Translations under genes and position numbers: made by a program | Notes under the pieces: model-generated | The model's database searches: none | What the model saw: only the letters and a program-made list of their open reading frames with translations | Told to the model about the DNA's origin: nothing | Source: a virus | Reading direction: 5' to 3' (one strand) | Length of the DNA stretch: 64,000 nt | IMG/VR virus record: IMGVR_UViG_3300030002_000007 | Location: 1 to 64,000 of that record | In this document: positions 125 to 64,000 of the stretch, piece after piece | Layout: the number at the start of each line of letters is the position of its first letter | Position numbering within the stretch: the stretch's first letter is position 1

Positions 125-1621
125 TCACTCTTCGCCGTCGGGCCTCTGTTGCTCGGTCTCGCCCTTCAGCTTGTTCAATGCAAGAGTCAAATCTTTGTCC
201 GTACTGAGATCACGGAGCAACGTGTCCTTGTCGATGTTAGCAGCGGCCATCCACATCTTCATAGGGATCGGCACACCCTTGTCTGATGCCTTGTCCAACA
301 TGTCGAACATCGTGTCCTCTTGCTTGGCTTCCAACCCCTTGTGCCAGATCAGCTGAGGCATCTTCAGGTTGCCAGAGTTGTTGGCATTGAACAGGAAGTC
401 CAGTGGATTCTGCGTAGCCTTGGCTTTGGCTTTGTCTTTGAACAGGCCGTTGGTCACAGCGATCAGAGGGAACACGCGACGGTAGAACACCTGCGAAGTC
501 AGGTGCGACCGATAGCCGTTGCAAGTCTCGAGGAACGTTGAGTAGGCAGACTCGGCAGATGCGAACGATGCGTCACCAGACAGCAATGCCTCAGAGATGC
601 CCAAGGCTCGCAGCTTGTAGGCCACCATAATGTCGGCCATGTCTGTCCATTTGAAGAAGTCGCCAGCAGCACGAATGTCTTGCACTTGGACGGCGTTACG
701 AGTAGCAACCCAACCACCTAGAGGGTCGGCCTCTGATGCTTGGAACATCTGCACCAAGGACGTAAGCTCTTCCGAAGTCGGTGTCCATGTCTCGTCACCA
801 GCTTGCAAGTGGGTGGTCGCTCTTTGGCGTTTCGTGGCTTCAACCAACGTACCCCGGAACATCGTCTTCTCGATCAGATACATCGGGAGGACGCGATGGA
901 GGTACGAAGTGTACGCTCTGTCTGTCAGGCCGCGACGAGCAATGAACATCGTCGTGACTGGGTCGAGTGTGAAGCTTCCTTCCTTCAGAGTGCGAACGAA
1001 GTCTTGAGGCATCGACCTCATGTACTTCTTCGCGTAAGTAGAATGCGAAGCCATGAAGGCCTGCACCGTAGCAGCCACGTTGACCGTGATTGCCGGATCG
1101 ATGTTGTAGAACGGCGACGGAACAACTGAGCATTGCAGGGCGTCATGGATCAGTGTGTCAATGAATGCGCGAGCCTTGGCATCGTAGATCAGACTGCCGC
1201 AGAAGAAGCCGTCGACCAAGTAGGCGATGGAGAGCTCAGGCATCATCTGCCGAAGGTTCAGGCGCTCCAATGTAGAATTGAAGGGAATGAGTTCAGTCTC
1301 TTCCAAGCCCCGTAGTTCCCAGTCGGAGAACGGAAACACTGACTGGATATCAACCGAAGAGCCCGCTGTCGAATCAAGGAGGTAGCAATCCCGATAGAAC
1401 AGTGCGAGTGAGGAGCTGTCCGTGTTGCGCGGATCGGCCGGAAGGATCCCGGTCATGGTGTAGTTGTATTGCGACTGCATGGTCAGGTTCGTGCTGGTGG
1501 AGTGCATCCCACCCACGTCGGCAAACAGGCCATTGCGTTTGCCTGTGACCTGTGATTTTGGTGGAGGCGCTGTGCGCACTCCAGAAGAACTGACGCCGAG
1601 GATCTTGTTGCTCGTGAACAT
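125..1621 (-). CDS. Putative portal protein
   Basis: 498 aa. Portal proteins form the dodecameric ring at the unique capsid vertex through which DNA is packaged and to which the tail attaches. The central to C-terminal part (about residues 290-400) has the layout common in large-phage portals: an acidic 'SEADPLGGW' segment, a stretch that reads like the portal stem and clip (FKWTDMADIMVAYKLRALGI), then helices rich in aromatic residues. The length suits a myovirus portal. It lies downstream of the large terminase in the same leftward cluster, separated by a dozen small genes, which supports a head role. The C-terminus is acidic and Gln-rich. A different virion protein cannot be excluded without a structure or profile search. 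Confidence 0.6.
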   Translation of the reverse strand: MFTSNKILGVSSSGVRTAPPPKSQVTGKRNGLFADVGGMHSTSTNLTMQSQYNYTMTGILPADPRNTDSSSLALFYRDCYLLDSTAGSSVDIQSVFPFSDWELRGLEETELIPFNSTLERLNLRQMMPELSIAYLVDGFFCGSLIYDAKARAFIDTLIHDALQCSVVPSPFYNIDPAITVNVAATVQAFMASHSTYAKKYMRSMPQDFVRTLKEGSFTLDPVTTMFIARRGLTDRAYTSYLHRVLPMYLIEKTMFRGTLVEATKRQRATTHLQAGDETWTPTSEELTSLVQMFQASEADPLGGWVATRNAVQVQDIRAAGDFFKWTDMADIMVAYKLRALGISEALLSGDASFASAESAYSTFLETCNGYRSHLTSQVFYRRVFPLIAVTNGLFKDKAKAKATQNPLDFLFNANNSGNLKMPQLIWHKGLEAKQEDTMFDMLDKASDKGVPIPMKMWMAAANIDKDTLLRDLSTDKDLTLALNKLKGETEQQRPDGEE

Positions 1622-2521: not shown

Positions 2522-2529
2522 TATTTACA
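2522..2529 (-). promoter_or_regulatory. TGTAAATA motif overlapping a stop codon
   Basis: Minus-strand CTGTAAATACA, identical over 11 bases to the copy before the gene at 42428. It overlaps the TAA of the upstream gene and lies only 7 nt before the MmcB-like ATG, so a transcript from it would be nearly leaderless. Possibly coincidental. Confidence 0.3.
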
Positions 2530-2911
2530 GGGAGCGTCGAATCTTCAGGAAATCCCTGCGCGGCATCAGGATCAACAGCGTGTCCATGTCCACGGGCTTG
2601 AGCACGCAGGTCATGAGTTCGAAGACGCGGCTGTGCGGGGAATCGAGAGATTGTCCTTCGCCGGACACGATCGAGTATTCACCGATGTGCTCTTCGTGAC
2701 CCTTGTGGAGCAACTGGAGAAGTCGCTCAGTGAGGTCGGCGGCGTTGATGTTCAAGAGGCAACCGGGGAACGACGAGCCATGGAACGGAATGTCTTTGAC
2801 AGGACCCGTCTCGTGCAGCTTGGTCATCAGCTCCTTGACGACTTCCATAGGAGGCTTCGTCAGGTCCATGTAGTACGCGGCCCTAAGCCGATCAGCAGCT
2901 TCGATCTTCAT
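2525..2911 (-). CDS. Hypothetical protein with shared N-terminal tag
   Basis: 128 aa from the ATG at 2911, which has an AAGGA box 6 nt upstream. The N-terminus KIEAADRLRAA belongs to a motif also present at the start of the proteins at 3805, 4034 and 5859. The remainder is a mixed alpha/beta sequence of unknown function (segments DIPFHGSSFPGCLLNI and DTLLILMPRRDFLKI). The fact that only the first dozen residues are shared suggests a targeting or processing signal on an unrelated body. Confidence 0.6.
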   Translation of the reverse strand: MKIEAADRLRAAYYMDLTKPPMEVVKELMTKLHETGPVKDIPFHGSSFPGCLLNINAADLTERLLQLLHKGHEEHIGEYSIVSGEGQSLDSPHSRVFELMTCVLKPVDMDTLLILMPRRDFLKIRRSL

Positions 2912-2925
2912 AATCAATCCTTAAA

Positions 2926-3504
2926 TCAACGACCCAAGAAGGCTCTCGAGTCTTCCTTAACCTTACCGTATTCGCGTTGAATGAATTCCGAGATCGAACC
3001 TCGGCTCTTCGCCAACACTTGCTTGTACGCTTTCCAATCATCGGGTGCCATGAAGTTCTTCGCATCCGCAGCGACAGACGCATACTCCTGAACGATGTGC
3101 ATACCAACGTCCAAGAAGGATGGGCGAATAATCTTCTCCACTAGGGAGTCGCCGATGGCTCCGCGATCCTGCATGTTCTGCAGATCGATCATCACTTCAC
3201 GCATGGATGAGATGAGTGAATTGAGCTGATACACACCCCGGGCGCCCTTGGTACGACGGATGGTCGCTTCAGCGTAGGGAATAGAATCGATGATCGTCTG
3301 CAAGCTCTTCTTGTAGATCAGTGCTGTCGCCGAATCATTGTCGCCCACTTCGAGCAACTGTTGAATGGCTTCGGCGCTGTCACCAAGGATAGAACGCATC
3401 TTGCCGACGTTCTTCAGCTTGGAAATCTTGTCCCGCACCTCACGCTTGGCGGGAAGCGAAGAGGCAATAGTAGCGGGCAAGTGGCGAGGGAGATCTTTTT
3501 TCAT
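2926..3504 (-). CDS. Hypothetical helical protein, 192 aa
   Basis: Not recognised. The sequence is predicted by eye to be almost entirely helical, starting with a basic segment (MKKDLPRHLPATIASSLPAK) followed by heptad-like stretches. It lies between the terminase and portal genes, so a small head, scaffold or packaging accessory role is possible. It starts 6 bp after the zinc-ribbon gene with a weak ribosome binding site, suggesting translational coupling. Confidence 0.6.
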   Translation of the reverse strand: MKKDLPRHLPATIASSLPAKREVRDKISKLKNVGKMRSILGDSAEAIQQLLEVGDNDSATALIYKKSLQTIIDSIPYAEATIRRTKGARGVYQLNSLISSMREVMIDLQNMQDRGAIGDSLVEKIIRPSFLDVGMHIVQEYASVAADAKNFMAPDDWKAYKQVLAKSRGSISEFIQREYGKVKEDSRAFLGR

Positions 3505-3509
3505 TTTGA

Positions 3510-3794
3510 TTATATCGTGAGGCTCAGCGGAGGAAGCTTGGAGGCATCGCCGTCCGTTGCTTCGTCGACGGTCTCAGCGTCCTTGATCGGAAGGACGATA
3601 CGGCAAGGGATGCAGGAGATGACAGGATCTTCGTCGAGGAACACTTCTTCCATCGGCGACTGACAGTCAGGGCACAGGCCTTGACCTGCAACCTCTGCGC
3701 TCATGTCGATCTTTGCGGTCACTGTCTTCGATGTATCGCTTGATGCCTGTAGCTTGGACGGTGCGGCAAATGCTTGGGGGATTCGTACAGCCAT
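3510..3794 (-). CDS. Small zinc-ribbon protein
   Basis: 94 aa. Two Cys pairs, CPDCQSP and CIPC, about 20 residues apart form a probable zinc ribbon in the middle of the protein (residues about 41-64). The flanks are low in structure: an Ala/Ser/Thr-rich N-terminus and an acidic C-terminus. The ATG at 3794 has a good AGGAG box. Function unknown. Small zinc ribbons in phages often bind nucleic acid or RNA polymerase, which is only a general possibility here. Confidence 0.65.
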   Translation of the reverse strand: MAVRIPQAFAAPSKLQASSDTSKTVTAKIDMSAEVAGQGLCPDCQSPMEEVFLDEDPVISCIPCRIVLPIKDAETVDEATDGDASKLPPLSLTI

Positions 3795-3804
3795 TTCATT
3801 ACTC

Positions 3805-4041
3805 CTAAAGCATGTTGAGGTTGACGTTGTTGCCCTTCAATGCATCCCGGACAGCAACCAAAGCCTCGAGGGTTCCTTTGGCCGCCCAGTAGGAAGGAGC
3901 GACCGTGGGGTTGTGCTTTTCCTTCTCTAGCGAATGGAGAAGTCTTTCTTTGTCAGTGATCAGAGCATTGATCTTTGCGAGTACTGCCTTCGGAGAGCCT
4001 GCGGTCAATCGAGTAGCAGCGTTGATGCGCGTCTCAGTCAT
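3805..4041 (-). CDS. Small tagged protein, 78 aa
   Basis: The N-terminus TRINAATRLTA carries the shared tag. The rest is a helical hairpin-like sequence (KAVLAKINALITDKERLLHSLEK, split by prolines, then a second helix). The ATG at 4041 overlaps the stop of the upstream tagged gene by 8 bp, so translation is probably coupled. Function unknown. Confidence 0.6.
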   Translation of the reverse strand: MTETRINAATRLTAGSPKAVLAKINALITDKERLLHSLEKEKHNPTVAPSYWAAKGTLEALVAVRDALKGNNVNLNML

Positions 4042-5203
4042 GATCGAACTCGGTGTAGTAGACAGGCTTGCCCACCTTCTGCGTCAACTCTTTGGAAGCT
4101 GGCTTGTCGTAGGAGAAGCGACGAGTACTGAATCGATACCCGGTACCGAAACCTGACGGCGTGAGATCGAAGCTCCTACCCTGCTGGAGAATGCCTACAT
4201 ACTTCTCCATCTCTTGCGGGAGGACATTCCGAGCAGTAGGTCCGAAGTTGAATGTTGCACCATTGGCTTTGCGATGCGCCGTAGCTTCACGCGTCTTCTG
4301 TACTCGAGTGATGCAACCCTTGATCGTCGAACCGATGTGACCGTACGTCAAGCCAGATGAGCCGTCGTCGATACCGCTACGTTCGTAGGTGTACCACTGG
4401 GGATCAGAAGCGTCGAGCTTGAAGTACGGCTTGATGGATCCCCCAACTGAGATGAATCCCCCACCCGGATTGTAAACCAGTACGAGGTCGGGGCTTGCAG
4501 CCATCCAGCCTTTGTTCTTGTTCAGGTAGTAAGGATCAACGCCGAGGGGATCGCCTGACACTTCACTGAGTTTGAAGCCCTTGCTCTCCAGCTTCTTCAT
4601 CTCTGTCAGGACTGCGGCCTGCCCCGCTTTAGGGTCAGTCTCCCAGTCAACATTGAGATGGTGCCGGTCACTCATCTCGTCGTAGTCCTCTTTGAGCTTC
4701 TTGCAAATGTACGCCCACGAAGAGTTCAGCAGTGGCATGACTTTGAGCAGACCTTCCACGAAGACGTAGGTCCCGGGCACTGTGTGCTTGCCCGAGGGCT
4801 TCGACTTGAGTAGGATCGTGTAGGCCTTTATCAGAGTATCGAGGTTCTTTAGTCCCACTCCTCTACGCGCTCTTGGCCCGAAGAACTCCAAGAGGGTTGA
4901 AGCATATTCGTCTTCATCGTCTTTGCCTGAGTCAACGATGGCTTTGCAGATATAACGCAAGGTGTGACTCTGTCCGGAGACTACGTTATAAAGCTCGACA
5001 TTGCCGATCTTCTGATTCCAGAACGCGTGGGTCTTGCGATCCTGCTGATTGTCCCTGAAGTTGAAGATGAAGTTGTACGTGTCGAACTTCAGGTGCGACC
5101 ACAGCGCGAGAATCTTCTCAGCCTCTGCTACTTGAGGCGGTGTGAATTTCGCTACTAGCTGCGTAGCTTTAAGGCGTGAGGCTGCATTGATCTCGATCTT
5201 CAC
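4034..5203 (-). CDS. Tagged hypothetical protein, 389 aa
   Basis: The start chosen is the GTG at 5203, which overlaps the TGA of the RuvC-like gene (GTGA) and has AGGAGA upstream. The frame stays open further upstream but that part lies over the resolvase gene and looks non-coding. From this GTG the protein begins VKIEINAASRLKATQ, the shared N-terminal tag. The body contains helical segments and a Gly-rich beta-type region (VYNPGGGFISVGGSIKP). No family is recognised. Its position between terminase and portal suggests a virion or packaging role. Confidence 0.65.
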   Translation of the reverse strand: MKIEINAASRLKATQLVAKFTPPQVAEAEKILALWSHLKFDTYNFIFNFRDNQQDRKTHAFWNQKIGNVELYNVVSGQSHTLRYICKAIVDSGKDDEDEYASTLLEFFGPRARRGVGLKNLDTLIKAYTILLKSKPSGKHTVPGTYVFVEGLLKVMPLLNSSWAYICKKLKEDYDEMSDRHHLNVDWETDPKAGQAAVLTEMKKLESKGFKLSEVSGDPLGVDPYYLNKNKGWMAASPDLVLVYNPGGGFISVGGSIKPYFKLDASDPQWYTYERSGIDDGSSGLTYGHIGSTIKGCITRVQKTREATAHRKANGATFNFGPTARNVLPQEMEKYVGILQQGRSFDLTPSGFGTGYRFSTRRFSYDKPASKELTQKVGKPVYYTEFDHD

Positions 5204-5853
5204 TTTCTCTTCTCCTTGATGATGCGCAGAGGCAAGCATGATGTGTTCTCCACTTGCTTGATGATTTGTTTGGGAGTGTAGTGCAGCTGACGCTTCAGTC
5301 CAAACTCGAGGCCATACACCCCGATCAGCGAAGCATCGAACGGGTGTGGGGCGGTCTTGACGCAAGGATACACGAGCTTCAGGTCAAGCTTCTCTGCCTC
5401 GGGGTACATGTCGCCCAGCTCTTCTTGGAAGCGGCGATTGAACGCATTCTTCCAAGTCGATGCAGTGATAGCACGGATGGGCAAGTGAGAGTACATACCG
5501 CCTAGAAGGCCGATCATGGAGGACACTAGCTCGATCAACGGACCACCGTTGCCTCTTGTCTGGAACCTTTCAATCACGATAGCGTGAGGCTCGAAGTGAT
5601 TGATCCACCGCGAGATCTCTGCCAAGAACACATGCCTCAGACTGTTGAACTCAACCATGCTGTTCAAGGGAGCCGTGAGCACCGAGTTGGCAAGGACTAC
5701 AGGCTTGTTGTCCTTCATGCCGACGCACGCGATACCGAAATGCTTCGAGCCCGGATCGAGAGAAAGCACACGCAGTTTGGGCAGGGCTCCGAGCTTAGGG
5801 AGTGTGTACTCTGCGTTGGGTTTTGCTGCCTTCTTCTTTTTCCGGGCGACCAT
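5200..5853 (-). CDS. RuvC-like Holliday junction resolvase
   Basis: 217 aa. RNase H-fold resolvase: motif 1 SLDPGSKHFGIA with Asp33, motif 2 IVIERF with Glu95, and C-terminal motif HPFDASLIG with His170 and Asp173. These match the acidic catalytic residues of RuvC. A Lys-rich N-terminus (MVARKKKKAAK) may contact DNA. In phages such enzymes trim branched recombination and replication intermediates so that the packaging motor is not blocked, in line with its place between terminase and portal. It is coupled by GTGA overlap to the tagged gene downstream. Confidence 0.85.
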   Translation of the reverse strand: MVARKKKKAAKPNAEYTLPKLGALPKLRVLSLDPGSKHFGIACVGMKDNKPVVLANSVLTAPLNSMVEFNSLRHVFLAEISRWINHFEPHAIVIERFQTRGNGGPLIELVSSMIGLLGGMYSHLPIRAITASTWKNAFNRRFQEELGDMYPEAEKLDLKLVYPCVKTAPHPFDASLIGVYGLEFGLKRQLHYTPKQIIKQVENTSCLPLRIIKEKRK

Positions 5854-5858
5854 GAGGA

Positions 5859-6488
5859 TTACAGATCCGAGACGTTGTCGACAGTTGCGAGTTGCAGGAT
5901 GTTGGTGTCCGGCATGGAGAAGCTCGTTGAGGTGGAGATCATCAAAGGCCAGCTGCCGTCCTCACGCGCAAAGACAGTAGCCTTGCCGTTTTTCCCATGC
6001 TTGCGCCAACCGAGCTTCTTCAGGACACCGGGCATTGCAGCAGTATGACTGGAGCTCATTGCTATCGCGATGATCTTTCCCTTGCGCACCAAGCGAACAT
6101 CTTCTTTCGCCGGATCGCCGGTGCCGTCCTTAGTGAAGACGCGCTTGATCTCTTTGTATAGAGACCGCGTGCACTTCTCGTGGGTCTTGAAGTCGATGCC
6201 GGATTGCAACTGCTTGGAGGCTGACGCGTCGGAGATAGGATGCAGGTCCTTAGCTTCGTACCCACTCTTGGTGGTACCCTCTTCATCCTTAAAGCGGGCA
6301 GGTATTCCTGAGTGCTTCGGATTTGCATCCCACTTGACCGGATACACAGTAACCGGCTTTCCGCCTAGGGTGATAGAGATCCCACCGGAAGCTACAGTAC
6401 CTTTGAAGTCAGTGCCTTTGAAAGAGACACGGTCGCCCTTGTTAATGGATGCAGCACGCAACCGTGTCGCGGCATTGATTTGAACCAT
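5859..6488 (-). CDS. Tagged hypothetical protein, 209 aa
   Basis: N-terminus VQINAATRLRAA is the clearest copy of the shared tag. It is followed by a small beta-barrel-like segment (GDRVSFKGTDFKGTVASGG) resembling KOW/SH3-type 'functional context' loops, then a Lys/Asp-rich linker and a C-terminal alpha/beta part with HGKNGKATVFAREDGSW. AGGAGG lies 8 nt before the ATG at 6488. No family is recognised. A Gly-rich barrel after the tag hints at DNA or RNA binding, an inference only. Confidence 0.65.
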   Translation of the reverse strand: MVQINAATRLRAASINKGDRVSFKGTDFKGTVASGGISITLGGKPVTVYPVKWDANPKHSGIPARFKDEEGTTKSGYEAKDLHPISDASASKQLQSGIDFKTHEKCTRSLYKEIKRVFTKDGTGDPAKEDVRLVRKGKIIAIAMSSSHTAAMPGVLKKLGWRKHGKNGKATVFAREDGSWPLMISTSTSFSMPDTNILQLATVDNVSDL

Positions 6489-6796: not shown

Positions 6797-7229
6797 GACT
6801 TTCCCCTTTCCCTTTCTTGGGCACAGCGTATTCGTAAAGAACCATCGTCTTCACTCGACCTTGCTTGGCCATGACCTTTTGCATAGCCTTGTTGGTGTGG
6901 TGCGTGCCGCCCTGTATCTTACCGAGTCCCGCAGCTTTGGCGATAGCAACAGCACGCTTCCACAGCTCAGAGTAGATGCCCTGCTTCCTGTAGCCTTTGG
7001 ACACGTACCCGAGTACGACCAAGAGGCTGTTACCCCACTCCTGAATATCGTACAAGAGCACACCAACAATGCGCCCCTTGTGTTCCGCGACTATGGCCTG
7101 CTGGTCGTAGCTGAAAGACACAGATTGATGATTGTGGCCTTTGTCAGTCAGCTCGATCATGGCTCGAAAGTAGTAGTCGACTACGGGCGTGTTGTTGCAG
7201 CGTGCAACCTTAGTGTATTGAATCTTCAT
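6783..7229 (-). CDS. GNAT-family N-acetyltransferase
   Basis: 148 aa, the usual single-domain GNAT length. The acetyl-CoA pyrophosphate-binding loop is seen as VSKGYRKQGIYSELWKRA (R/Q-x-x-G-x-G/A motif, here with a less usual final position), preceded by the beta-strand pair AIVAEHKGRIVGVLLY. GNATs transfer acetyl to amines. In phages they may modify host proteins, toxins or tRNA-linked substrates, so the substrate here is unknown. It overlaps the terminase stop by 4 bp and has a Lys-rich C-terminal tail. Confidence 0.75.
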   Translation of the reverse strand: MKIQYTKVARCNNTPVVDYYFRAMIELTDKGHNHQSVSFSYDQQAIVAEHKGRIVGVLLYDIQEWGNSLLVVLGYVSKGYRKQGIYSELWKRAVAIAKAAGLGKIQGGTHHTNKAMQKVMAKQGRVKTMVLYEYAVPKKGKGESHGKK

Positions 7230-9316
7230 CGCATACTCCTTCCGGCAAAAGCGGGCATCGGCATTTTTGGTCTTAGGGTGTCATCTACGAGCACAGCATT
7301 TTTGAGTCTCTCCATTATTTTTGGCTCGTGCACAAGGACCTGAAGAACCAGAGCCCTAAAGATATCATCGGTAAAGCCCTCGCCCTTGCCCGGACATTGA
7401 GTGGGCCCAAGCTCTCGCACCGTCAGCATCTGCAAGACCAAATGTTGGATAGGCTTGCCATTCAACAACCTGAAGTCAATGACTGAGCCATCAAGCACTG
7501 CCTCGAACTGTTCCTTGCTGATACGAGGGAAGTGCATGTTCATGCTTTCCATCATAGCGACAAGAACGTCGAAGTGTTTGCGTCTCGGAGAGAACTGCTT
7601 GGTCAGACATCTAGGCTTGCCATCTACTAGCTTGCCCATATCTTCCATAGCACGGTGCAGAATATCCAATGACTGCCATTGGTCTGCAAGAAGACATACT
7701 GCGTGGAGATCCTTGCAAACAGGGAGGATCACCTGCTGGTACATCTTGTTGAAGTCGATCTTCCGGCCTTCGTGAGGCATGCACTCCAGTACCGTTGACA
7801 CTTCGGTCTGGTGAGTATCGAAGTTGTAGTGCGCAGCTGTGAGGCAGAACGAGTTGTTCACCGAGCCTGCGTCTATCGTTACTACTGAGGGGAACGGACA
7901 GGCACGAAGCTTCTGCACCTTAGCGTAGAGCATGCCCGGTTGGTCGTAGCAGTACGTCATCTCGTGCGTAGGTATCTGATCGAACAACTCGAACTTGACC
8001 GTTGATCGTCCGATGAACGCAGAGTGCACCCTAGGTGGATTGGCCCCGAAGTCGCGCTCTGCCTTTTCCGGATTGGTCGCGTAGGCTAGAGCGATCAAAG
8101 GTGTATCTCTGTGAAGCGTTGGGTTGACCTTCCATGTCGGCAACTGAATACCGAGGATGTACTTCTCGCCTTCAGGCGTCTTGGCATCGCCCAATCGACG
8201 CATGACCTTATCGCGGATGCTGATCGGAGAGGACACACCTAGCATCAAGGCGGGAGGCGCATTGATCCCTTCCTTCAGCAGATCGATGTTAATCGACTGC
8301 ACCGTAGCAAGGCTGTTGGTCAAGGACTTGTGCGCTTCATCCGCATTGGCTCGTGACGACTGCTCGTCTTCCTCTTCGTTACCCTTCGGTAAGGGAAACA
8401 AACCCAACTCGTCGATCACCGCAAAGATTCGTGAGTCGCCGCGAAGGATCGGGCCATTCGGATGTGTCGGGTAGAACTTCAAGTTCTTGTGAAAGTACTT
8501 GATGAACAGATCCTTCTTCCGGAAAAGTTCTACGCCATACTTCTCACCGTAGTGCGTCAGGAGTTCATGGTAGTTCTTGAACCAGTCGCTCTCGTCGATG
8601 ATGTTCATGTAAGGCGTCCACAGCAACGCCTCTGCCTTACTGAACGTCAGGGACACGAACGTGCCAGTGAGCTCCGTGGACTTCTGCATCGAATTCGGAG
8701 CCAAGCTTGCAAGCTTTGGGAACTTCAAGTAGCGATGGGTGAGGTAGGAGCAGTACGAGGCAGCACTTGAGGACTTTCCGGAACGCTGACCTAGGCAATT
8801 CACCAGCTCCTGATAGTTGTGCAGGTAGTGATTCGTAATCAGGTCATGCTTGGTGCGTTTGCACTTCGGGCACTTGCCGTTCTCGAGAACTTGCATGTGC
8901 TCAGTGATGCCTATCGAGGGCATTGCCTTATCGACGTTCTCGACAATGTAGCCTAGGTCGAACCACCGCTTGTCTGAGCAGCACGGACAGACTTCACCCA
9001 TGAGCATCAGGCCCGTCCACATCTGAATGACCCACGGAGGGTTGGCATCTTTGCCGATGATGTTGTACGCGTAGTCGTAGTAGTTCTTCGCCGATGCAAG
9101 GTCGCGGTCGTCGATCTTGAGGTCGCGGATCATCCCAGTGTCAGGGTCTTCCGCGTCATCCATCAAAGCGACAATGTCGAAGTCATCGACATACTTCGGA
9201 GCGTCTTCGTACTCTACCTCAACCTCGGAGCCAAAGGCAGCTAGCTCGGGGAAGAAATGCGCTTCCATCTCCGCCCTTGAAGGCTTTGCCTTCTTCTTAC
9301 CCTTCAACTGGGCCAT
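7226..9316 (-). CDS. terL: Terminase large subunit
   Basis: 696 aa. Motor ATPase and headful or site-cutting nuclease of DNA packaging. The Walker A motif is GQRSGKSS (residues about 176-183), Walker B is FAVIDELGLF near residue 300, and the nuclease domain begins with VVTIDAGSVNNSF near residue 490. A zinc-finger-like insertion precedes the ATPase (Cys110, 112 and 113, then Cys149 and Cys152), a feature of some large-phage terminases. GGAGG lies 8 nt before the ATG. It overlaps the upstream gene of unknown function, which occupies the position where a small terminase subunit would be expected. Confidence 0.9.
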   Translation of the reverse strand: MAQLKGKKKAKPSRAEMEAHFFPELAAFGSEVEVEYEDAPKYVDDFDIVALMDDAEDPDTGMIRDLKIDDRDLASAKNYYDYAYNIIGKDANPPWVIQMWTGLMLMGEVCPCCSDKRWFDLGYIVENVDKAMPSIGITEHMQVLENGKCPKCKRTKHDLITNHYLHNYQELVNCLGQRSGKSSSAASYCSYLTHRYLKFPKLASLAPNSMQKSTELTGTFVSLTFSKAEALLWTPYMNIIDESDWFKNYHELLTHYGEKYGVELFRKKDLFIKYFHKNLKFYPTHPNGPILRGDSRIFAVIDELGLFPLPKGNEEEDEQSSRANADEAHKSLTNSLATVQSINIDLLKEGINAPPALMLGVSSPISIRDKVMRRLGDAKTPEGEKYILGIQLPTWKVNPTLHRDTPLIALAYATNPEKAERDFGANPPRVHSAFIGRSTVKFELFDQIPTHEMTYCYDQPGMLYAKVQKLRACPFPSVVTIDAGSVNNSFCLTAAHYNFDTHQTEVSTVLECMPHEGRKIDFNKMYQQVILPVCKDLHAVCLLADQWQSLDILHRAMEDMGKLVDGKPRCLTKQFSPRRKHFDVLVAMMESMNMHFPRISKEQFEAVLDGSVIDFRLLNGKPIQHLVLQMLTVRELGPTQCPGKGEGFTDDIFRALVLQVLVHEPKIMERLKNAVLVDDTLRPKMPMPAFAGRSMR

Positions 9317-11568: not shown

Positions 11569-12235
11569 TCAGTCGTCGTCATCATCGAAGTCATCATCTT
11601 CATCGACAACCTTTTTCTTCTTGGCCGGAGCCTTCTTCTTCGGAGCAGGTTCATCGTCGTCATCTTCGTCCGCATCGAAGTCATCGTCTTCATCAACGAC
11701 TTTCTTCTTTTTCGCGGGAGCCTTCTTCTTCGGTGCTGGCTCGTCGTCATCCTCGAAGTCGTCATCTTCATCGACGACCTTCTTGGACTTCTTCTTTGCC
11801 GGCGCGGGTTCATCATCCTCGTCGTCATCAAAGTCATCTTCGTCGACTACCTTCTTCTTTTTCGCAGGAGTCTTCTTCTTTGGAGCCGGTTCATCTTCGT
11901 CATCGTCGAAGTCATCCTCGTCAACGACTTTCTTTTTCTTCTTCGGCGCCGGTTCATCTTCTTCGTCGTCGCTGTCGAAGTCGTCTTCGTCTTCGTCGAC
12001 TACCTTCTTCTTTTTGGCCGCAACTTTCTTCTTGGGGGCCGGCTCGTCGTCATCCTCGCCGTCAAAGTCATCTTCGTCTTCATCAACGACCTTTTTCTTC
12101 TTGGCCGTAGCCTTCTTCTTCGGTGCTGGCTCGTCGTCATCCTCGTCTTCGTCGAAGTCCTCGTCAACTACCTTCTTCGACTTCTTCGGTGCGGGCTCGT
12201 CGTCCTCGTCAGCATCTTCGACCTTCTTCTTTTTC
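11569..12235 (-). repeat. Eight imperfect tandem repeats coding the charged tail
   Basis: In-frame tandem repeats of about 75-90 bp, each coding an acidic block, the peptide EPAPKK, a lysine run and VVDED. Units differ in length and in synonymous codons. They could still promote slippage or recombination that changes tail length. Confidence 0.75.
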
Positions 12236-13041
12236 TTGCCGGCGTTGACCTTGAAGCCCATGCTTAAGGCCCAACGCTCGAAGTTTGCACGAGTGCCTTC
12301 TTCGCTGTCTGCTGAGCTGAGGTCGGACAGATCCCACAGTAAGTAGGCCAATTCTTCTTCAGTAAGCGGAGTCTTGGCTTCACGCGGAACGACTTGATAT
12401 TGCTCAGACGGAGCCTTGTCGCTATCGTAGAGCACGCGAATGTCGCAACCATACTTCGGATGGCTAACCGGGAAGCACTTCACTTCACCCGAGCGGCTTT
12501 CGATAGTGTTGAGTTCTTTCAAGCCCTTGATCTTGCCGGCCAAACTTGTCGGAATGCGAACGGCAACGACTGGAGTCAGTGTATCGCTGTCCTTGTCCTT
12601 GAAGCCAGTGGTACGCTCGATCTTGGTGGGCTTGTTGTCTTCCGCATTGAACTTGCGCTGTAATGAACGGCTGATCATGCACACCCAATAGTTCTTGACG
12701 AACTGAATCGGGGAACGCCAGTTCTTCATGTCCTCGCCGTCACTCTCGGCTTTGGCACGCAGCTTGGCTTCGGCATCACGCCACGGATCATAGATCGTGG
12801 AATCGCGCTCTTGCGTTGCCGGGTCGAATGACGGACACTCGACATAGTACTTGATCGGCTTGCCTTCCTTGTTCTTGCCAGCGATCCAGTAGCCGGCATA
12901 AGCAAACACCTTGCCGAGGACTCGCATTTGGATCCACTTCTTTTCGGGGAAGTGATAGACGTCAACCTTATCCTCTGGCCGACTCTTCTTCTCTCTTCCG
13001 CCACCCTTTACGTCGTCAAAATCAGTACCTGCACGGCCCAT
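11569..13041 (-). CDS. Putative ssDNA-binding protein with repeated charged tail
   Basis: 490 aa. Residues 1 to about 265 form a globular domain with aromatic and basic patches (FPEKKWIQMRVLG, FVKNYWVCMISRSLQRKF). Residues about 270-490 are a polyampholyte tail made of eight imperfect units of the type DDEPAPKKK-x-AKKKKVVDEDDDFD. Position next to the recombinase and the acidic end (DDDFDDDDD) are typical of replication ssDNA-binding proteins such as T4 gp32, whose acidic tail binds partners. The fold itself is not certain from sequence. Codons vary between units, so the repeats are maintained at protein level rather than being a recent DNA duplication. Confidence 0.6.
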   Translation of the reverse strand: MGRAGTDFDDVKGGGREKKSRPEDKVDVYHFPEKKWIQMRVLGKVFAYAGYWIAGKNKEGKPIKYYVECPSFDPATQERDSTIYDPWRDAEAKLRAKAESDGEDMKNWRSPIQFVKNYWVCMISRSLQRKFNAEDNKPTKIERTTGFKDKDSDTLTPVVAVRIPTSLAGKIKGLKELNTIESRSGEVKCFPVSHPKYGCDIRVLYDSDKAPSEQYQVVPREAKTPLTEEELAYLLWDLSDLSSADSEEGTRANFERWALSMGFKVNAGKKKKKVEDADEDDEPAPKKSKKVVDEDFDEDEDDDEPAPKKKATAKKKKVVDEDEDDFDGEDDDEPAPKKKVAAKKKKVVDEDEDDFDSDDEEDEPAPKKKKKVVDEDDFDDDEDEPAPKKKTPAKKKKVVDEDDFDDDEDDEPAPAKKKSKKVVDEDDDFEDDDEPAPKKKAPAKKKKVVDEDDDFDADEDDDDEPAPKKKAPAKKKKVVDEDDDFDDDDD

Positions 13042-54397: not shown

Positions 54398-55138
54398 ATG
54401 GTAGTCAAAAAGCCCCTCGCAAAGAAGCCGCTGATCGATCAGGCCAAGAAGGCCGTCGCGAAGATCGGCACGAAGACAGCAGCAGCCCCAGTCAAGAAAG
54501 GTGCGTTCGGTCGTCCGGTAGTTGCAGGTGCTGCAAAGAAGGCTCCAGTGCGGAAGGCCGCTCCCGCAAAGCGCAAGCCAGTTCTGTTTGCAGCGCCGGC
54601 TGACTTCAAGCCCCACTTCCTGTTGATCGAAGTCCATTCGGAAAAAGACGGACTGATCGGCGGCAACGTTGGTGCCGTTCGCTACATGGGTCGTTTCGAC
54701 CCTGCTGCAGACGACAAGAAAAAGTCGAACATGGCCGAATACGACCAAGACACGTTGCGCGGCATTGCAGCACGGCTCGCAGCTATCACGTTCAAGACCA
54801 ACGCTGATCGCGTCTTCTCAGCAGATCCGTCCGAACGTGAAGGTGTGCGCGGTGCACATCGCCTTCCGCGTTCGACAGTGTTTCACGTCCTGGTTCGTGT
54901 TGGCAGTCGCAAGGCCGACGGCAGCATCATGTGTCCCGTTCGTGCAATCTATCAACGCGTGCAGAAGAAATCGACCAAGACCGGCAAGGTCGTCAGCAAG
55001 TCCGTGGCTTTGACGAAGACCGATCCAGTTTCACGTATGTTGCGTCGCGTCGGCCGTATTCTTCCGGCGGCGTTCAAGAATGTCCTCATGCCTCCGAAGA
55101 AGACCCGTGGCAGTCGTAAGGAAGAAGCCGAAGAATGA
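54398..55138 (+). CDS. Basic protein with histone-H1-like N-terminus, 246 aa
   Basis: AGGAG precedes the ATG at 54398. Residues 1-68 are Lys/Ala/Pro-rich (KKPLIDQAKKAVAKIG, KKAPVRKAAPAKRKP), like the tail of histone H1 and of bacterial H1-like proteins. A globular domain follows (residues 70-245) with PHFLLIEVHSEKDG, ending Lys-rich with Glu. It could coat or compact DNA, or bind RNA. The globular domain is not recognised. Confidence 0.55.
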   Translation: MVVKKPLAKKPLIDQAKKAVAKIGTKTAAAPVKKGAFGRPVVAGAAKKAPVRKAAPAKRKPVLFAAPADFKPHFLLIEVHSEKDGLIGGNVGAVRYMGRFDPAADDKKKSNMAEYDQDTLRGIAARLAAITFKTNADRVFSADPSEREGVRGAHRLPRSTVFHVLVRVGSRKADGSIMCPVRAIYQRVQKKSTKTGKVVSKSVALTKTDPVSRMLRRVGRILPAAFKNVLMPPKKTRGSRKEEAEE

Positions 55139-55691: not shown

Positions 55692-56363
55692 ATGATCGCA
55701 AAGAAAAAAGCCCCAGCCAACAAGCCCGCCGCCAAGAAGCCTGTTGCTCGCGTTGTTGCCAAAGCGCCGGGCAAGACCAAGCGTCGCGTGGTTGAAGTTG
55801 AAGAGGACGAGGATGAAGTCGAAGCCGAAGAGTCCTCCAGCCAATGCGTCCTTCTGAACTACGTTGCTCAAATCACCGGCAAGAAGATCATCCCCTCCGA
55901 CGTCGGCTACACGGTTGACGGCGAACTGATCCTCAAGGCCCAAGTCGTTGCAGTCGTCGGCAAGACGATCTTCTATCGCACTTCCGTCAACCTTGGCGAG
56001 ATGGGCGAAGTCCAGTTGATCAAGGGCATGACCTGCATCGATACGGAAGAAGGCAAGCTGGTGGTGTTTGATCCGTCGGCCATCACGATCGTGACCCTCA
56101 ATGCCGGCGCCGGTGCCGAAGAAGAAGCCGAGGACGAAGATGAAGTCCCCGACGAGGACGAAGATGAAGATGAAGCTCCTGCTCCGAAGAAGAAAAAGGG
56201 CAAGAAGGTAGTCGAGGAAGAAGATGACGACGAAGTCCCGGAAGATGACGACGAAGTCCCGGATGACGACGAGGACGACGAAGTCGAAGTCCCGAAGAAG
56301 AAAAAGGGCAAGAAGGTTGTTGAAGAAGATGACGACGAAGGTGACGACGACTTCTCCTTCTGA
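55692..56363 (+). CDS. Charged-tail protein with SSB-like acidic tip, 223 aa
   Basis: Lys/Ala/Pro-rich N-terminus (residues 1-35), a central globular part (residues about 50-135, CVLLNYVAQITGKKIIP, IFYRTSVNLGEMGEV), and a polyampholyte tail with PAPKKKKGKKVVEEEDD repeated in part, ending GDDDFSF. That tail resembles the repeats of the SSB-like protein at 11569, and the acidic hydrophobic tip resembles the partner-binding tip of bacterial SSBs. No SSB OB-fold match was confirmed. A promoter candidate lies upstream and a strong hairpin downstream. Confidence 0.55.
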   Translation: MIAKKKAPANKPAAKKPVARVVAKAPGKTKRRVVEVEEDEDEVEAEESSSQCVLLNYVAQITGKKIIPSDVGYTVDGELILKAQVVAVVGKTIFYRTSVNLGEMGEVQLIKGMTCIDTEEGKLVVFDPSAITIVTLNAGAGAEEEAEDEDEVPDEDEDEDEAPAPKKKKGKKVVEEEDDDEVPEDDDEVPDDDEDDEVEVPKKKKGKKVVEEDDDEGDDDFSF

Positions 56364-59448: not shown

Positions 59449-61012
59449 GCCAGCAACACCTACGGTTAAGAAAGCAGTAACGAAGCGTGCATCACCCAAA
59501 GCAAAGGGCTTGGCAACACTGGGTGGTGGCATCGTGCGTGAAGGTTCGATTGACGACTACGCGCAGGAGACAATGAGTGAGTACGCTGAAGAAGTGAACC
59601 TAGCGCGCTCAGTGCCTGATTTGATGGATGGGCTGAAGCCTGTGCAACGACGCATCATGTGGTCAGCGCACAAGATGCCCGGTTCCGGTTTCCGCAAGAC
59701 AGCCCGCATAGTTGGTGATTGCATCGGTAAGTATCACCCACACGGTGACGGGTCAGTGGATGGGGCGATCGAGACGTTGGTGCAGCATCCAACGCCAACG
59801 ATGCTGGGTAGCGGCAATTGGGGCGGCTTGTTGGATAGCGCGGCAGCAATGCGATACACCAACTGCAAACTGTCCAGTTACGGCGAGTCCTTCTTCCTTC
59901 CTGACTACATCAACAGTTCGGTGACGTCGTTTGTTCCCAACTACGACGGCGAAGACGACGAGCCTGTGAGCTTGCCTTCAATGCTTCCGAACGTGCTGCT
60001 CAATGGTGGTGAAGGTATCGGCGTTGGCGTCACGACGTTGATCCCGACATTCAGCCCCGAGTCGATCATTATCATGCTGAAGCGCGTGCTTGCTGGCGAG
60101 ACACTGACTCCAGTCGACTACGCGAAGACCTTGAAGTTCCAGTCGAAGTGGGGTGGGCATGTATTGAACACCAAAGAGAATAGGGCGGCGTGGTTGCAAC
60201 TGTTCAAGACCGGATCGGCATCAGTGCAGTTCAAGGCTGCGTTGCACATTGATCGGAACGGCAAGGCGATCGAGATTGACGATTGGCCACCCGGCCTCAA
60301 TCCTGTGGCTTTGGTCGACAAGATCAGACCCAAGGAAATGAAGAACGGCAAGGTACGTGCAGGGCTTGCCGAGGTCGATCAGGTGTTCAATCACAACGGG
60401 GACACCGGCTTCCGCATCGAAATGAAGAAGGACCGGAACTACACGCAATTCGATGAACTGGTCAAGAAGATCGAACGCCTGACTACGTCGCGCAAGAGCT
60501 TCAAGATCAACGTTACTTATCGGAAAGCGACAGTGGAAGATGGCAAGGTGATCTTCAACACGCGGTTCCTGTCAGTGTCCATTCCGAAGTTGCTGTCCCT
60601 GTGGCTCAAGGAAAGGCTGCAGATCGAAAAGCGCAGTCTCGAGTATCGGCTGAAGAACCAAGCGGCTATGATCGCCTACTCGAAGCTCCTGATTTACGCA
60701 TCGACGAAACTCGAGGTCGTGTTTGCTGCATTGAAGTCTCAGGACTCCAAGGCTTACTTGGTGACGAACCTCAAGCTAACACCTGAGCAAGCCGACACGA
60801 TCCTTGAGTTGCGCGTTCGTCAGTTGTCGAAACTTGACAAGGCTGCAATGGAGTCGAAGCTCAAGGAACAGGTTGCCTTCGAGGCCCAGCTGCAGAAGTG
60901 GTACAAAGCCCCACGGGCCAAGGTGTCTGCTGATATGGACACTTGCCTACTGGCGATCCAGAAGGATCGGACCTATGAAAACGTGAAGGAAGAAGAGCTC
61001 ACGATTGCCTAA
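59438..61012 (+). CDS. Type IIA topoisomerase, DNA-cleavage subunit
   Basis: 524 aa from the ATG at 59438, overlapping the ATPase-subunit gene by 11 bp. ParC/GyrA/T4 gp52-like. The winged-helix active site has Tyr140 preceded by Arg139 (AMRYTNCKLSSYGES), and PDLMDGLKPVQRRIMWSA, GKYHPHGDGSVDGAI and LNGGEGIGVGVTT are conserved. The C-terminal beta-pinwheel of GyrA seems absent, as in gp52, so it should decatenate or relax without wrapping. A coiled-coil region follows near residues 390-490. Confidence 0.92.
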   Translation: MQSRPATPTVKKAVTKRASPKAKGLATLGGGIVREGSIDDYAQETMSEYAEEVNLARSVPDLMDGLKPVQRRIMWSAHKMPGSGFRKTARIVGDCIGKYHPHGDGSVDGAIETLVQHPTPTMLGSGNWGGLLDSAAAMRYTNCKLSSYGESFFLPDYINSSVTSFVPNYDGEDDEPVSLPSMLPNVLLNGGEGIGVGVTTLIPTFSPESIIIMLKRVLAGETLTPVDYAKTLKFQSKWGGHVLNTKENRAAWLQLFKTGSASVQFKAALHIDRNGKAIEIDDWPPGLNPVALVDKIRPKEMKNGKVRAGLAEVDQVFNHNGDTGFRIEMKKDRNYTQFDELVKKIERLTTSRKSFKINVTYRKATVEDGKVIFNTRFLSVSIPKLLSLWLKERLQIEKRSLEYRLKNQAAMIAYSKLLIYASTKLEVVFAALKSQDSKAYLVTNLKLTPEQADTILELRVRQLSKLDKAAMESKLKEQVAFEAQLQKWYKAPRAKVSADMDTCLLAIQKDRTYENVKEEELTIA

Positions 61013-61190: not shown

Positions 61191-61514
61191 ATGTTGAAAG
61201 AACTCGCTCAAATCACCAAAGGCGTTCGTGTCCTGACCCGTGAAAATGGTTCACTGCAACGCAAGCTGACCGCCGCCGAAAACAAGATCGCGCGTTTGAC
61301 GGGCAAAGCCGTTCCGGTCAAGGCCGCGAAAGCCGCCAAAGCGCCGGTCGCCAAAACCGTCAAGGGTAAAGTCGCCAAGGCAGCGCCGGCGAAGGCAGTC
61401 AAGGCAGCGCCGGCAAAAGCCGCCAAGGTCGTCAAGGGTGCCGCCAAGAAGGCAGCTCCGGCGAAAGCAGTCAAGGGCGGTGGCAAGAAGGCAGCCTCCG
61501 AGTTCCTGCTGTAA
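61191..61514 (+). CDS. Histone-H1-like Lys/Ala-rich protein, 107 aa
   Basis: AGAAGG precedes the ATG at 61191. An N-terminal coiled-coil (residues about 1-38, with VLTRENGSLQRKLTAAENK) is followed by a tail of repeated KAAPAK/KAVKAAPAK units and ends with SEFLL. H1-like tails bind DNA non-specifically. The coiled coil could multimerise it. Strong promoter and terminator suggest high expression, perhaps to compact or shield DNA or to interfere with host chromatin. Confidence 0.7.
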   Translation: MLKELAQITKGVRVLTRENGSLQRKLTAAENKIARLTGKAVPVKAAKAAKAPVAKTVKGKVAKAAPAKAVKAAPAKAAKVVKGAAKKAAPAKAVKGGGKKAASEFLL

Positions 61515-63709: not shown

Positions 63710-64000
63710 ATGAAGCTCAAGGCCGTGGAAAGGTTGACAGCTGTACCTCAGCTAATCTCGTTGAACGACGTCGAGGTCAAGGACGCCATACTTGACTGCA
63801 AGAAGAACTTCGATGCGGCTAAAGATGTAGAATCGATCGGCTCAGGTGCAAAGCTGTTTCAGTTGGACACACCTAGTGGTGGATACTTCTTCGTTATGGA
63901 AACTTCCTCCCGTGAGATTCACTACTTGGTGCGCTACAAGCAAGTGGAGCTTAGTTCCAAGCTTAATCTTCCATCTGGAAGTTCCGCCTGCCGTCAAGTC
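63710..64000 (+). CDS. Partial gene at window edge with tag-like N-terminus
   Basis: ATG at 63710 with AAGGAGACATCT upstream. 97 codons are visible with no stop before the edge. The start KLKAVERLTAV resembles the shared tag (A-x-x-R-L-x-A), though less exactly. The remaining sequence is an alpha/beta mixture (FQLDTPSGGYFFVMETSS). Function unknown. Confidence 0.6.
   Translation, partial: MKLKAVERLTAVPQLISLNDVEVKDAILDCKKNFDAAKDVESIGSGAKLFQLDTPSGGYFFVMETSSREIHYLVRYKQVELSSKLNLPSGSSACRQV

Follow-up and report, generated by a model that had tools for sequence, protein, structure and literature searches.

A short N-terminal peptide on unrelated jumbo phage proteins is probably a virion-packaging signal

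Why should unrelated genes of one phage open with the same short peptide? The question is raised by a 64,000-nucleotide stretch of virus DNA (hereafter the window; bases 1-64000 in a virus contig 81,478 bases long, IMG/VR record IMGVR_UViG_3300030002_000007), in which the peptide [I/L]-x-A-[A/V]-x-R-L-x-A opens five genes, four of them between the genes for terminase and portal protein. The window terminase shares ~51% identity with its counterpart in Burkholderia phage BcepSauron and 46% with the one in Achromobacter phage Motura; the contig is a jumbo phage, kin of both. A wider search for the motif, as proposed in a sequence-only reading of the window, found far more tagged genes than the five first noted: in total 158 non-redundant proteins, which fall into 102 unrelated body groups, 82 of them singletons. 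In our judgement M-x-[I/L]-[N/Q]-A-A-x-R-L-x-A is probably a virion-packaging (capsid-targeting) signal on injected cargo; packaging, a prohead partner and injection are what we infer from the comparison with known systems described below.

The five peptides pointed out in that reading are all present in the translations. Four of the genes lie on the minus strand, and all four have unknown bodies: they encode proteins of 128 residues (2525..2911; peptide MKIEAADRLRA at 2879-2911), 78 residues (3805..4041; MTETRINAATRLTA at 4000-4041), 389 residues (4034..5203; (M)KIEINAASRLKA at 5165-5203) and 209 residues (5859..6488; MVQINAATRLRA at 6453-6488). The 389-residue protein starts with a GTG at 5203, with the ribosome-binding site AAGGAGA upstream and an overlap with the end of a gene for a RuvC-like resolvase; we prefer this start to the one listed for the open reading frame, at 5365, which is too early. 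The fifth gene, on the plus strand (63710..64000 in the window; peptide MKLKAVERLTA at 63710-63742), runs past the window end to 64300 on the contig and encodes a protein of 196 residues, the body of which matches phrog_1349 (unknown function; E 1e-15). The proposed clustering between terminase and portal holds for the first four genes and not for the fifth, which is not near virion genes. This copy is the least certain of the five, because of its place away from virion genes and because V replaces the second A, and it may be a chance match. Counting ATG starts only, 4 of 130 window genes are tagged near the start, whereas 2000 within-protein shuffles averaged 0.12 and never gave more than 3; inclusion of the gene with the GTG start would raise 4 to 5.

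The tag is not confined to this contig. The first scan of IMG/VR, with the strict M-K-I-N-A-A-T-R-L, gave no matches; a degenerate DNA pattern for I-N-A-A-T-R-L-x-A found eight stretches, most with several different tagged open reading frames. One match (L007/G004), single and in an unrelated phage, was discarded as chance. A scan guided by the capsid protein covered 80 loci, and dozens of IMG/VR contigs carry the tag. The related loci (1.13 Mb) hold 131 tagged starts, and only 1 is left when this DNA is reversed. A script called the gene starts in contigs that had no annotation, several loci of one study may stem from a single phage, and a few of the 158 proteins are probably chance matches (for example, those in L054 and L115). 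Motura has 15 tagged genes (gp158-164, 168, 170, 171, 174-177 and 197, including a run of hypothetical genes within gp158-177), BcepSauron has 7 (gp075, 077, 091, 093, 099, gp253 and gp276, reached via a homologue in its head/tail block), and three more contigs have 9, 21 and 10. No tagged gene was seen in the surroundings of the BcepSauron terminase, within ~20 kb of the capsid gene of PhiXhv-15, Afa-NA1, GR7B, Aura, RHph_I42 and HRDY3, or at 50-100 kb in PaBG. Some seemingly negative loci have variants of their own, namely MNFA[ST]R[LVI]L (L107 and L083), [VI]NSTARLKA (L097) and AA[VL]xRLx[AS]TEV (G007, a 231,255-base record with tagged open reading frames at 60780, 69735 and 77367), which suggests that the tag and its receptor drift together. 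A looser motif, with one to three residues before RL, was dropped because reversed DNA matched it equally often. No published description of the motif was found in the literature searched.

Aligned, the tags give the consensus M-[K/Q/E]-[I/L/V]-[N/Q]-A-A-x-R-L-x-A-[A/S/T], about 11 residues long and starting mostly at residue 3 to 5. The invariance of R, L and, in the wider scan, A2 is by construction, since these residues were fixed in the search pattern. Among the positions left free, A is found at position 3 in 99 and N or Q at position 1 in 101 of the 158 proteins, and A at position 8, where the pattern allowed nine residues, in 110. Information is limited to about -1 to +9 of the motif and falls to background level beyond position 10; no enrichment for E was seen over the 25 residues downstream. 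Every synonymous codon is in use for the A, R and L of the motif, and selection therefore acts on the peptide. Tags of unrelated proteins are more similar within a genome (0.36) than between genomes (0.28; reached in 0 of 2000 permutations). Tagged proteins also contain 13 second copies, versus 0.39 expected from shuffled bodies. Copies occur internally and C-terminally as well, some of them 11-12 residues from the C-terminus; across all genes, C-terminal copies number 7 versus 5 in reversed DNA, an excess that is not significant.

The bodies, which had been said to diverge completely, do so: 70 hand-checked tagged proteins from seven genomes form 55 body clusters. Nor is the peptide the start of one common folded domain, as the different body families and one confident structural model indicate. 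In the AlphaFold model of the G002_q family (eight sequences; mean predicted local distance difference test score, pLDDT, 84), only residues 1-11, that is, the motif, form a segment below 50, and in this one confidently modelled family the tag is thus predicted to be a flexible tail outside the fold. A fold search with this model gave weak matches only, mainly to uncharacterised viral proteins. For the 209-residue window protein (5859..6488) no relatives were found, and modelling it on its own gave a poor result (mean pLDDT 45). A small repeated domain, W..L....Q..Y...HP.SK, was seen in BcepSauron gp075 and its relatives (G001_i and G003_c) and in NCTB L141:5974-6705; it often stands right behind the tag, with up to three copies per protein.

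Several tagged bodies belong to recognizable families: Nudix (3), DUF3175 (4), SprT-like (1), a ribosome modulation factor (Motura gp163) and a protein kinase like T7 0.7 (G002; L023:9575-10177). Two tagged proteins contain a DarA_C domain (one of them L102:6384-7730; E 5.8e-14). In tblastn, the DarA_C-type protein found DarA of phages D6 and P1, the D6 homologue with 35.6% identity over 90 residues (E 1e-9); according to the P1 record, DarA is an internal head protein that undergoes processing as the head matures and is released upon infection. A homologue of the DarA_C-type protein in NCTB aligns from residue 13 and lacks the tag. The YHGT stretch of Motura gp162 resembles an ADP-ribosyltransferase by eye, with no confirmation from the library. 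Outside the window, at 71858-72328 on the plus strand of contig G000, an untagged protein with a VYHGT start also looks ADP-ribosyltransferase-like by eye. A G001 protein gave a single weak match, below the cut-off (E 6e-4), to a toxin-named metalloprotease model, which we do not interpret.

Where the tagged genes lie was judged from protease, scaffold, capsid, sheath and tube genes placed by tblastn. Of 57 loci, 25 have tagged genes between protease and scaffold; between sheath and tube, 20 of 52 do. The interval from scaffold to capsid gene holds tagged genes in 0 of 72 loci, that from capsid gene to sheath in 1 of 69. All seven tagged genes of BcepSauron lie in virion blocks that make up about one quarter of the genome (the blocks were picked post hoc). 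In G002, the first 38 kb, a stretch of virion genes, hold 18 of ~19 tagged genes; one more adjoins the portal gene. The tagged genes are thus members of head or late blocks, as are the genes for proteins with T4-type capsid-targeting sequences (CTS).

Do known cargo signals behave in this way? Encapsulin cargo-loading peptides are short terminal linear motifs that recruit unrelated cargo into an HK97-fold shell; they are usually C-terminal and are read by the shell protein, whereas the jumbo-phage tag is mostly N-terminal and stands in a phage context. In phage T4, it is a CTS that brings every internal head protein into the core (PMC5694885), and these proteins are a diverse defence set of which the CTS is the sole common part (PMC3012670). 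The likeness is that of a short N-terminal peptide common to unrelated proteins of the prohead core that are injected (PMC3012670, PMC5694885, PMC12373910); here, too, a short N-terminal peptide, conserved over ~11 residues, stands on unrelated bodies (158 proteins in 102 groups). The T4 leader, however, is removed by gp21 after LxE, whereas the jumbo-phage tag has no acidic site: with E not enriched, a T4-type LxE cleavage site was not found, although a cut after LxA is possible. The jumbo phages also differ in having from ~5 to 21 tagged genes per phage examined and in carrying the tag internally and C-terminally. In phage P1, a reporter is packaged when it carries the first 30 residues of DarB (PMC9024508), and DarA_C is common to a tagged protein and the known packaged and injected DarA; the Dar proteins, in contrast, have no shared N-terminal consensus (PMC9024508). 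In SPN3US and phiKZ, N-terminal extensions are thought to load the giant-phage heads, and two paralogues have identical first 15 residues (PMC5694885); their propeptides, unlike the tags of ~11 residues, are mostly longer than 100 residues and have A/S-x-E sites. Most likely, then, the peptide works like the T4 and P1 CTS, yet with its own sequence.

The sequence-only reading had proposed a sorting or processing signal. Sorting gains good support from the comparison: a single peptide, about 100 unrelated bodies, selection at the level of the peptide, prohead and virion gene neighbours, effector-type enzymes and DarA_C. Processing gains none, as there is no conserved downstream acidic residue and some copies are internal or C-terminal. 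The motif could nevertheless be conserved as the recognition sequence of a prohead protease that cuts after L-x-A, comparable to LxE in T4 and S/AxE in phiKZ. The frequent A at position 8 fits such a site, as does the next residue, which is A, S or T in 63% of the proteins versus ~20% further on; the protease gene adjoins the scaffold gene in these phages; and virion proteins of the relative PaBG, which has no tagged genes in the part searched, are processed (gp80, 81, 191, 213 and 215; PMC7412058), so that head proteolysis occurs in the wider family. We nonetheless find a cleavage signal doubtful on balance, for I0, A2, A3 and R5, far from the cut, are conserved beyond the need of a protease site, cutting at the copies 11-12 residues from the C-terminus would free few residues, and the site lacks the acidic P1 residue of its known relatives. 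Nor is there a clear motif copy in the pro-region of the capsid protein. The capsid N-terminus K-I/V-x-V-x-A-[A/S/T]-[R/K]-T-P was considered as a relative of the motif and not accepted, because it lacks R-L and because its P and GE[I/L/F/M]NA parts are also found in phages whose capsid gene has no tagged gene nearby. A 213-residue protein outside the window (contig G000 77527-78168, plus strand; L003:15528-16169) resembles, over one stretch, the C-terminal part of the major capsid protein of BcepSauron (33% over 72 residues, E 5e-9) and is perhaps a capsid-protein paralogue.

If the peptide is an address, it might name a destination other than the head, such as the tail tube or baseplate, a chaperone or an intracellular phage compartment; the second favoured slot, between tail sheath and tail tube, and the location of some tagged genes near tail fibres (BcepSauron gp276) speak for this. 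We regard it as unlikely, given that the prohead-specific slot between protease and scaffold is commoner, that the precedents for a common leader on unrelated cargo, T4 and P1, are head signals, and that cargo of the kinase, Nudix and DarA type fits injected head proteins. It is far less credible that the peptide is no protein signal at all, being a relic of ancestry in diverged duplicates or an element at the start codon that is conserved as nucleic acid. Some tagged proteins are indeed true paralogues (for example, 5 in G002) and tags are alike within a genome, but the codon usage and the different known families of the bodies largely refute this explanation, and copies inside and at the ends of proteins, together with the untagged homologue in NCTB, also contradict it. 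Very improbable, too, is a role as a degradation tag or as an amphipathic helix that binds membranes: proline is nearly absent from the tag (1 of 158) and a short helix was predicted in one model, yet the helical hydrophobic moment is not raised (0.31 versus 0.34 for the same residues shuffled), and membrane binding would leave the fixed R-L pair and the A positions unexplained. Some observations do weigh against a packaging signal on injected head cargo. Tail genes are the neighbours of many tagged genes, the slot between protease and scaffold holds none in BcepSauron and some relatives, and P1 DarA, DdrA, DdrB and Hdf all lack the peptide; moreover, DarA_C covers just ~60-90 residues of a 449-residue protein, and the match in NCTB is a weak one (22.8% identity, E 1e-4).

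In the window, the cluster of four tagged genes is bordered downstream by the portal gene (125..1621, minus strand; phrog_16240, E 2e-165; 58% identical to the BcepSauron portal) and upstream by the gene for the terminase large subunit (7226..9316, minus strand). Amid the tagged genes, the gene for the RuvC-like resolvase (5200..5853, minus strand) is without the peptide. Elsewhere in the window, a protein encoded at 11569-13041 (minus strand) takes the place of the single-strand-binding protein and has a long tail with ~10 repeats of the KKKVVDEDDDFDDDEDEPAPKK type, and three Lys/Ala/Pro-rich, histone-H1-like proteins are encoded on the plus strand at 54398-55138, 55692-56363 and 61191-61514. 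Motura (NC_049849, 16982-23200) carries a large deazaguanine/queuosine set (QueC, QueD, QueE, tRNA-guanine transglycosylase and GTP cyclohydrolase), probably for DNA modification.

How might a packaging signal of this kind operate? We propose that a short linear motif, mostly N-terminal and at times repeated internally or C-terminally, recruits unrelated cargo by binding a shared component of the head during assembly, most likely the scaffold/core or the prohead interior. Gene order makes the scaffold the first candidate for the reader of the tag. The cargo would be packaged and then injected with the DNA, to act as early effectors and anti-defence proteins; genes for early-use enzymes in late virion blocks would make sense if their products are packed for the next infection. 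The prohead protease may later remove the tag, for example, after L-x-A, while the copies 11-12 residues from C-termini suggest that binding, not cutting, is the constant. More tentatively, although we take the idea seriously, this clade of jumbo phages may possess a general cargo-loading code, in which one motif, at either end or in tandem and with no requirement for cleavage, is read by a co-evolving head component and loads ~10-20 unrelated effectors per phage.

The proteins that jumbo phages inject are hard to learn. If the tag is their address label, a sequence search lists dozens of unknowns in phages of Burkholderia, Achromobacter and probably Ralstonia, among them a ribosome modulation factor, a kinase, Nudix enzymes and a DarA-like anti-restriction protein. 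With such a code, the motif would show from the genome alone which anti-defence and host-takeover proteins are injected. The same peptide would then also serve as a short label with which proteins of choice could be loaded into a very large capsid, and as a handle on the prohead receptor.

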